From the NCBI GenBank assembly GCA_016871175.1, contig VFZL01000006.1:62001-126000 (forward strand): a stretch of DNA of 64,000 nucleotides, in the 5' to 3' direction. The position numbers were made by a program, and so were the translations under genes. The notes under the pieces were generated by a model that did not search any database, was not told the origin of the DNA, and saw nothing but the letters and a program-made list of their open reading frames with translations. Shown in pieces: positions 6,957 to 9,189 of the stretch (its first letter is position 1; every line of letters begins with the position of its first letter). The DNA comes from Acidimicrobiia bacterium (GTDB taxonomy: Bacteria > Acidobacteriota > Vicinamibacteria > Vicinamibacterales > CAVVIG01).

Positions 6957-7532
6957 ATGTCCCGACTCGGGTTCGTCCTCCTGGGCCCCGCCTTGGTCCT
7001 CATCGTGGCGTGCGGCGGTCAGCCGCCGGAAAAGGAGATGCAGCAAGCCGAGGGCGCCATCGAGGCAGCGCGAGCCGCGGGCGCGCCCGAGTACGCGGCC
7101 GATGAGTTCGGGGCCGCGGTGAAGGCGCTCGAGCGTGCCAGACGAGCGGCCGTCGATCGCGACTACCGGCAGTCGTTGAACGACGCGCTTGACGCGCGAG
7201 ACCGCGCAAAGACGTCGGCTCGCCAAGCCGCGGACAACATGGCCGCCGCGCGGGTGGACGCCGACCGCTCCGTGGCCGCGGCTGCCGCATCGCTAGAGGC
7301 TGTCCGCAAACGCCTGAAGGACCTGGACGCGCGAAGAGCGGGACGCGGGCCGGCCTCGACGCGGCGGTCGCTCGATGCATGCGCCGAGCGTGTGCAAGAA
7401 GCACGCACAGCCTTGAACAAGCGGCAGTACGCGGTGGCCGCCCAGACCGCAAACGCCGCGTCGAAAGCGATTATCGAGATCGGCGCCGAGTTGGATGCGC
7501 GGGTGGCGCCGGCGCCGCGTCGCGGCTGCTAG
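6957..7532 (+). CDS. Lipoprotein with DUF4398-like helical repeat
   Basis: A 191-residue exported lipoprotein. A hydrophobic signal ends in a lipobox (LIVAC, Cys19), followed by GGQPPEKEM. The rest is alanine/arginine-rich, strongly helical, with repeated segments of the type AAxxALExARxAAxxxDY. This resembles DUF4398 and related tetratricopeptide-like lipoproteins of the Gram-negative envelope. The start is supported by a TATACT box seven bases upstream. It is divergent from radC. The function is unknown; a structural or envelope-stabilising role is only a guess. Confidence 0.8.
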   Translation: MSRLGFVLLGPALVLIVACGGQPPEKEMQQAEGAIEAARAAGAPEYAADEFGAAVKALERARRAAVDRDYRQSLNDALDARDRAKTSARQAADNMAAARVDADRSVAAAAASLEAVRKRLKDLDARRAGRGPASTRRSLDACAERVQEARTALNKRQYAVAAQTANAASKAIIEIGAELDARVAPAPRRGC

Positions 7533-7579: not shown

Positions 7580-8434
7580 TTACTGCACGCCGACGTGTCG
7601 GTTCGGGGGCAGGGCCTCGACCGATGACGCCAAGGGTGTCGGCCGCAGCCACTCCCCTTCACAAAGGACCTCGGCCCAACCCGTCAGGAACACCGTCTCG
7701 TCCCCCCACGCGACGCGTTGCGATCCGCCCGGTGCGATGACATCCGCCTCTCGAGCGGCCCCTCCGTGAGACGCTGCGGCCACCAGGGCTGCGCAGGACC
7801 CGGTACCTGACGATTGGGTCGGTCCGCACCCGCGTTCCCAGACGAGGATCCGCAGACGGTCTGGCGCCTCGACCTGCGCGAACTCCACATTCGTACGGTC
7901 GGGAAACGCCATGTGCCGCTCCAACGCGGCGCCGAGGCGGAGAAACCGATCGCGATCGGGCAGCGGACCCAACACCACGCACTGCGGATTCCCAAAGCTC
8001 AAGACGACCGCCTCCACGACCTCGCCCTCGACCTGAAGCGTGGTCTGGCGGACGTTGGACGGCAGGCCCATCGACGCTCGGAAGAGCTGACGCGCGCCGT
8101 CGCGCGCAAGGCGAACCAGGTGTTTCGGCCCGGCCGCGGTGTCGACCGTCACCTCGCGATGCGCATCCACTTCACGCAGCAGGACCAACGCGCCGAGGGC
8201 GCGAACACCGTTGCCGGACACCTCCGCGATGCTCCCGTCTGCGTTGAGAAGCTCCATCGAGACCCTGGCGCCGTCGCACGCATACACGATGAGCCCATCG
8301 GCCCCGACGCCGGTGTGCCGATCGCACATCTCGAGCGCGAGCGCGGAGAGCGACAGGCTTGACACGGCCGATCGCGACACGTAGAGGAAGTCGTTCCCAT
8401 ACGCATGCGCTTTGGCGAACCTCAACGCGCTCAT
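7580..8434 (-). CDS. Diaminopimelate epimerase family protein lacking both catalytic cysteines
   Basis: A 284-residue DapF-fold protein; DapF interconverts LL- and meso-diaminopimelate for lysine and peptidoglycan. The N-terminal AKAHAYGNDF, the NADGS segment, GNPQCVV and WERG are recognisable. However, the first catalytic cysteine site (normally CGNG) reads VSGNGVRA with Ser73, and the second (normally CGTG) reads QSSGTGSC with Ser209. The acidic residue after ERGxG is proline. Cys-to-Ser changes abolish epimerisation in well-studied DapF enzymes, so this may be a divergent lineage or a paralogue with another isomerase role. The ATG overlaps the methyltransferase stop as ATGA, which fixes the start. 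Confidence 0.82.
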   Translation of the reverse strand: MSALRFAKAHAYGNDFLYVSRSAVSSLSLSALALEMCDRHTGVGADGLIVYACDGARVSMELLNADGSIAEVSGNGVRALGALVLLREVDAHREVTVDTAAGPKHLVRLARDGARQLFRASMGLPSNVRQTTLQVEGEVVEAVVLSFGNPQCVVLGPLPDRDRFLRLGAALERHMAFPDRTNVEFAQVEAPDRLRILVWERGCGPTQSSGTGSCAALVAAASHGGAAREADVIAPGGSQRVAWGDETVFLTGWAEVLCEGEWLRPTPLASSVEALPPNRHVGVQ

Positions 8435-9189
8435 TTTCGACAGAACGCGAGCAAGTGCCATCCGAATCGCCGCGTGAGCGACCGAGGCAGCGCGTTGAAC
8501 GTGCCTACGAAACACGTGTTGAAGATCATCCCCTTGAGACCCTTGTGCAGGCGCGAGTGCACGGGGAAGCGTTCCGGGACGATGCGAACGTCAGCGAAGT
8601 TGCGGACCAAGCGGCGCAGCTCCCCGATTGTGAGCTTCAAGAGCACGGGCGCATCCTCATGCTCGAGCTTCTGCTTCATCACCGCTGAGAGCGCGTTCAG
8701 CCACGAGACACGGTTGTAGACCTGGAAGATGGCTTCGCCGCCTGGCTTGAGTACACGTCGGCACTCGTCCACCAACCGTTGGGGGTTCGCGGTGTACTGC
8801 ACGACGCCGTGCGCGAAGACCAAATCGAACGTGTCGTCCGCAAATGGCAAGGCCTCGCCGTCGGCGACGTGAAACTCGCCGATGAGCCCTTGCTGGGCGA
8901 AGTTTTTCCGCGTCAGGTCGATGGCGGACGCCGCGAGATCGACTCCGATGACCCTCGCACCGCCCTTCGCGAAACGCACCAGATCCACACCCGCACCGCA
9001 GCCGACCTCCAGCACCTGTTTGTCGGCGTAGCGACCGAACGGCACCAGACGCGGCAGATGGTGCAGCTTCTCGAAATGGTAGTGATCGAGGTCGTCGAAG
9101 AAGCCGCGCGAGCCCACTGGATGCCGCGTGATCTCCAGGTCGTGAATGTGCCGGTCCCAATACGCGCGGACGTCGTCGATGGTCGCCAC
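8431..9189 (-). CDS. Class I SAM-dependent methyltransferase
   Basis: A 252-residue methyltransferase with a Rossmann-type SAM site (VLEVGCGAGVDL, about residues 60-71), the acidic ribose contact VIGVDLA, and the post-I strand FDLVFAHGVVQYT. This is the methyltransferase 11/25 pattern, and the substrate cannot be told. The N-terminal YWDRHIHDLE resembles SAM methyltransferases acting on small molecules or lipids. The GTG start lies eight bases after a TATAGT box on this strand (9198-9203), and the stop overlaps the DapF-family start. The two genes therefore form one transcription unit, divergent from glpD. Confidence 0.85.
   Translation of the reverse strand: MATIDDVRAYWDRHIHDLEITRHPVGSRGFFDDLDHYHFEKLHHLPRLVPFGRYADKQVLEVGCGAGVDLVRFAKGGARVIGVDLAASAIDLTRKNFAQQGLIGEFHVADGEALPFADDTFDLVFAHGVVQYTANPQRLVDECRRVLKPGGEAIFQVYNRVSWLNALSAVMKQKLEHEDAPVLLKLTIGELRRLVRNFADVRIVPERFPVHSRLHKGLKGMIFNTCFVGTFNALPRSLTRRFGWHLLAFCRK

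Follow-up and report, generated by a model that had tools for sequence, protein, structure and literature searches.

Diaminopimelate epimerase, DapF, is the standard example of an enzyme that works with a cysteine pair; drugs are aimed at it, and its annotation relies solely on similarity. The groups that hold a DAP analogue in the Anabaena enzyme are named in a structural report (PMC12039745), and the Cys/Cys enzyme is reported to be inactivated under oxidation by a disulfide (PMC5296763). Catalytic serines are described in the proline racemase superfamily, which has the same fold: a 4-hydroxyproline epimerase carries a Ser/Cys pair and a dehydratase a Ser/Thr pair (PMC4113996).

The window analysed here is a stretch of 64,000 nucleotides from an Acidimicrobiia bacterium that GTDB places in the Acidobacteriota, order Vicinamibacterales (assembly GCA_016871175.1, contig VFZL01000006.1, positions 62,001 to 126,000). 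It contains a dapF homologue on the minus strand, which the original prediction had not specified, with its ATG at 8434 and a stop codon ending at 7580; the start overlaps the stop of the upstream methyltransferase gene by four bases (ATGA). The features are as follows, in window coordinates.

7580 to 8434, minus strand: dapF homologue of the Ser/Ser form, 284 amino acids (translation, TIGR00652, PF01678; sole match in the genome)
8216 to 8218, minus strand: codon TCC of Ser73, at the position of the first catalytic cysteine (alignment and codon reading)
7808 to 7810, minus strand: codon TCA of Ser209, at the position of the second catalytic cysteine (alignment and codon reading)
7982 to 7984, minus strand: codon CAG of Gln151, at the position of the histidine of GNPH (alignment and codon reading)
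8431 to 9189, minus strand: SAM methyltransferase gene upstream of dapF (Pfam Methyltransf_11)

The central claim of the original prediction, that serine replaces both catalytic cysteines, is confirmed by alignment and by the codons: Ser73, in the motif NADGSIAEVSGNGVR, and Ser209, in WERGCGPTQSSGTGSCAA, align (phmmer) with the cysteines of EMCGNG and LACGTG in the Anabaena DapF 9mro. A third change had escaped it, GNPH to GNPQ at Gln151. Glutamine occupies this position in 51 of 53 loci of the order and histidine in two; the change is secondary, as Ser/Ser proteins with histidine are common outside the order, for which reason we also reject the joint loss of a Cys-His pair. The prediction had further reported a local acidic residue turned into proline. 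GPT does stand where GET is expected, but it is no anomaly and no lost acidic residue, because nearly all Cys/Cys DapFs read from cyanobacteria and melainabacteria have GPT. In WERG, both the Glu and the Arg that bind substrate are preserved.

Profile searches place the protein firmly in the family. It scores 187 bits against TIGR00652 (cut-off 114.65), its only Pfam match is PF01678 (DAP_epimerase), the proline racemase superfamily's own profile does not recognise it, and its 46.4 bits against the bifunctional DapF/glutamate racemase NF038284 are below the cut-off of 350. It has the DAP-binding residues of the solved structures, and Ser73 and Ser209 where two catalytic cysteines are expected. 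The PROSITE cysteine active-site signature, as given in PMC8225329, does not match it, nor any of the 105 proteins of the main Ser/Ser set, 100 of which match once serine is permitted; among Cys/Cys loci of other phyla, 48 of 50 fit the signature. Judged by its sequence, the protein is homologous to DapF but lacks the cysteines that define the family, and for that reason we do not class it as a canonical DapF.

The rest of the substrate site is well preserved. Among 120 Ser/Ser proteins, the counterparts of Anabaena Asn13, Asn66, Gly76, Asn197, Glu215 and Arg216 are invariant, those of Asn77, Asn164 and Gly225 are kept in 118, 113 and 117, and that of Thr226 in 106, the other 14 having serine. 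Gly74, Asn75, Gly210 and Thr211, which hold the reacting end, are also kept. Because these 120 proteins, a few of them from duplicate loci, were selected for having both serines, the two serine columns could not vary; the trees described below show that this selection is not the whole reason. The intact contacts make a different substrate, which the original prediction had allowed for, less likely. Its claim of a conserved fold is borne out by a confident AlphaFold2 model (pLDDT 94.0, pTM 0.89), whose best solved match is 9mro (TM 0.83) and in which the two-domain DapF fold is predicted.

To work in nature, an enzyme with two serines would have to differ at other positions too. The columns that separate 105 Ser/Ser proteins from 20 Cys/Cys proteins of other phyla include position 82, which is Ala in 99 of the former and Lys, Arg or Gln in 16 of the latter, and position 104, with Lys or Arg in 96 and Ile or Val in 14, respectively. 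We also considered substitute cysteines. Cys37 is kept in 103 of the 105 main-set proteins, but it is not new, because it is also invariant in a 29-row alignment that includes Cys/Cys DapFs. Cys214 (81/105) and Cys152 (68/105) are not constant.

The serine pair is genuine and extends far beyond this single gene. Within the order, 53 of 60 genomes have a DapF match, our own genome included, and all 53 are Ser/Ser; with the named record L043, the same two serines are present in 54 of 54 loci read. Chance or sequencing error is excluded by this recurrence. That the serines come from gene decay or from a mistake in sequencing or assembly is vanishingly improbable: they recur identically in many other families too, are encoded by TCN or AGC codons, and are refuted as artefacts by independent assemblies. 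Cysteine codons, which resequencing might have restored, do not reappear, since the same serines are found in many separate assemblies.

We extended the survey to a draw of 149 phylum genomes, of which 139 have a DapF match and 123 had their loci read; the 26 unclassed genomes comprise 10 without a match and 16 whose loci were not fetched. The 123 divide into 71 with only Ser/Ser, 47 with only Cys/Cys, three with Cys/Ser and two with both, one of the 71 (G159) having one further, unread DapF match. The top TIGR00652 match in the draw is itself a Ser/Ser protein (L169). Most Ser/Ser genomes (64/71) have GNP, as the window protein does, and the other seven have Val, Ile or Leu at the Asn that contacts the distal carboxylate. 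This second kind (L255, L256, L258, L264, L269, L294, L296) has Phe at the following position. Thirty-five phylum loci, for example L172, L195 and L216, are Cys/Cys with GVP for GNP at the same Asn; as 12 of their 35 genomes have strong LysA, the substrate of these proteins deserves attention. Family f37 has a Ser/Ser copy in three genomes, G120 (L189 and L285), G131 (L231 and L283) and G159 (L233); the first two also have a Cys/Cys copy, which has diverged. Farther away, the DapF of a Faecalibacterium MAG (L051) carries Ala in place of the first catalytic Cys (AGNC) but keeps the second.

On a 194-row tree built with the three motif residues masked, the division between Ser/Ser and the rest takes three changes. 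In a quick tree of family representatives, the main Ser/Ser group forms one side of a branch, with 39 of 39 rows Ser/Ser (SH-aLRT 92) and no reversal; Ser/Ser proteins of the GVP type and the copies from f37 fall elsewhere. A careful 62-row tree needs two changes for the main group, one change being enough in 12% of bootstrap trees; a single origin is therefore not established. The Ser/Ser state is clustered and stable on these trees. At the 105 main-set loci all four TCN codons occur at both sites, with AGC in three at site 73. The gene is under purifying selection (dN/dS 0.09-0.18, NG86, 11 pairs). Its neighbours in 16 loci of the order, two of which (L041 and L155) are the same contig, include homologues of metG in 15, radC in 14 and tatD in 14, and a methyltransferase homologue adjoins it in nine; this conserved neighbourhood, dtd-dapF-radC-metG, reflects the vertical descent of a housekeeping gene. 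Facing dapF in the window (6957-7532, plus strand) is a 191-amino-acid lipoprotein-like protein with no Pfam match, homologues of which lie near dapF in some loci of the order.

A whole-genome search returned the window protein as the only DapF match. The canonical Cys/Cys copy that would have made it a paralogue was not found in this assembly, which is rated 96.82% complete in 85 contigs and so leaves some chance of a copy in the missing part. The same genome has Asd, DapA, DapB, DapC, DapD, DapE, LysA and MurE over their NCBIfam cut-offs; the succinylase route to LL-DAP is thus encoded, along with LysA and a MurE of DAP type. Other members of the order, for example at L153 and L168, have adjacent DapB, DapA, DapD and DapE homologues. 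The genome's own dapC-dapD-dapE cluster (L149:6390-9580, contig C10) is of proteobacterial type, with a DapD 70% identical to that of Escherichia coli, unlike most order-mates seen, in which a more distant DapD lies beside dapA; the cluster was possibly acquired from outside. An operon with a desuccinylase is no proof of function: an M20 DapE-related protein lies within about 300 bases in six of 20 Ser/Ser neighbourhoods (20 genomes), and none of the six passes the DapE cut-off.

LysA is over the cut-off in 57 of 60 genomes of the order, and MurE has DNPR in 23 of 23 read. The by-passes that the original prediction had suggested receive no backing. Ddh is over the cut-off in none of the 60 genomes, our own included, and in one of the 149 of the phylum draw, a Cys/Cys genome. 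DapL makes LL-DAP, after which an epimerase is still required; its plant type is over the cut-off in one of the 60 genomes, its TIGR03540 type, searched in our own genome, is below it, and in the phylum DapL passes in four of 149, three of them Cys/Cys and one Ser/Ser. The pathway as encoded needs an epimerase step. Strong LysA matches (E up to 1e-80) occur in 49 of 64 GNP-type Ser/Ser genomes, none being found in the other 15, in 12 of 35 GVP-type and none of seven GNP-type Cys/Cys genomes, and in none of the seven genomes with the non-GNP Ser/Ser type.

We favour serine chemistry because the protein is the only DapF of its genome, the DAP contacts are kept, selection is purifying and the pathway is present without a known by-pass; the catalytic serines of the proline racemase superfamily are a precedent (PMC4113996). 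This was one of the options of the original prediction and fits best, and we infer it. The best-supported reading, at about an even chance, is that the protein works like DapF; we hold as evenly balanced the fuller proposal that it is a working epimerase, the lineage's only one from LL-DAP to meso-DAP, in which two hydroxyls would replace the thiol/thiolate pair. On binding LL-DAP the two domains would close up in the manner of ordinary DapF; one serine, placed where its helix begins, would take the alpha proton and the other would return one on the opposite face, and the meso-DAP formed would feed MurE and LysA. Such an enzyme could not be switched off by a disulfide between the two cysteines of ordinary DapF, and this freedom could be the benefit of the Ser/Ser state. 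Somewhat short of an even chance, in our estimate, is the wider proposition that many Acidobacteriota, and the whole order as read, have a cofactor-independent Ser/Ser epimerase that has no catalytic thiol, is proof against oxidation and would deprotonate an unactivated amino-acid alpha carbon via hydroxyls. We know of no characterised Ser/Ser enzyme of such a kind, and a search of titles and abstract openings, with most subscription journals outside its coverage, returned no paper on a Ser/Ser DapF or on Acidobacteriota DapF.

Chemistry argues against a working epimerase. Three papers report that pKa and desolvation make cysteine the favoured residue (PMC8142540) and that Cys-to-Ser mutants of related racemases are nearly inactive (PMC8225329) or greatly reduced in activity (PMC11602996). 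The protein might therefore bind DAP with catalysis lost, serving to sense DAP or to support another protein, with meso-DAP made by an unrecognised racemase, PLP-dependent or another cofactor-independent one. The distribution of DapF also fits badly with a working epimerase: seven of the 60 genomes of the order (G004, G006, G013, G032, G042, G047, G053) have no detectable DapF, as if it were dispensable there, and all seven have LysA over the cut-off. Searched with PF01678 at E up to 1, they give only weak, unrelated-looking matches; they are rated 66 to 100% complete, and the absence in G042, rated 100% complete, is hard to put down to gaps. Against lost catalysis stand the serines themselves, present at both sites throughout the order loci and the main-group rows rather than as a drifting mix, the retention of the four residues around the reacting end, and the fact that searches for Ddh, DapL and DapF identified no second enzyme. 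We regard this alternative as unlikely. By motif reading, two of the DapF-less genomes, G053 (L301) and G032 (L304), have proteins resembling proline racemase relatives.

Distinctly unlikely, in our view, is a different reaction, an elimination or one-sided exchange, on DAP or a DAP-like diamino acid. A Cys-to-Thr exchange is reported to have made a proline racemase relative a dehydratase (PMC8142540), which the natural Ser/Thr relative also is (PMC4113996). The Ser/Ser genome G149 (L171) apparently matches Chloracidobacterium validum, reported to require lysine and to be missing lysine genes (PMC12816986); such an auxotroph fits badly with a working epimerase, as do the f37 genomes with Ser/Ser plus Cys/Cys copies, the 15 GNP-type Ser/Ser genomes in which strong LysA was not found and the M20 neighbours of dapF that miss the DapE cut-offs. 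G149 nevertheless has a LysA-family protein over the cut-off. The pathway's need for an epimerase with no other candidate found in the DapF, Ddh and DapL searches, and the greater frequency of strong LysA with GNP-type Ser/Ser than with GVP-type Cys/Cys, speak against a changed reaction. Very unlikely is that meso-DAP is not needed at all, with LL-DAP in the walls, a LysA that accepts LL-DAP and an old epimerase free to change. The literature searched contained no wall chemistry for the order, and DNPR in MurE alone does not tell LL from meso; however, the known LysA acts on meso-DAP and LysA is near-universal in the order, and one would not expect every DAP contact and a low dN/dS to persist in a gene that is free to change. 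A working epimerase remains our preferred explanation, and the original interpretation is overall partly supported.

Should the Ser/Ser form prove active, a pair of hydroxyls would be carrying out a reaction for which a thiolate is held necessary, and a thiolate would then not be indispensable in this enzyme class; DapF inhibitors aimed at thiols would not act on this form, and the enabling residues could be sought by comparing Ser/Ser with Cys/Cys forms. If it is inactive, many of these bacteria would use an unrecognised meso-DAP enzyme or do without meso-DAP.

Compared with known systems, the protein shares with DapF (TIGR00652; the Anabaena 9mro, Haemophilus influenzae and Corynebacterium glutamicum 5m47 enzymes) its family score, fold, DAP contacts and place in the pathway, and differs from ordinary DapF in its two serines, in Gln for the His of GNPH and in lacking the PROSITE signature. 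Acidimicrobiia DapFs (L089, L096-L099) likewise have Ser at the first catalytic site in five of five read, but all five keep the second Cys and the His, and they form a separate clade (support 99/97). The 4-hydroxyproline 2-epimerase (Ser/Cys) and the trans-3-hydroxyproline dehydratase (Ser/Thr) are described as having the same overall fold and a serine as catalytic base (PMC4113996), but act on other substrates with one Ser of two residues; identity to the listed proline-racemase-type structures is 13-18%. Finally, the DapF crystal mutants C73S and C217S (2q9h and 2q9j, by their titles) have Ser at one catalytic site and are man-made, whereas the window protein has it at both, naturally.
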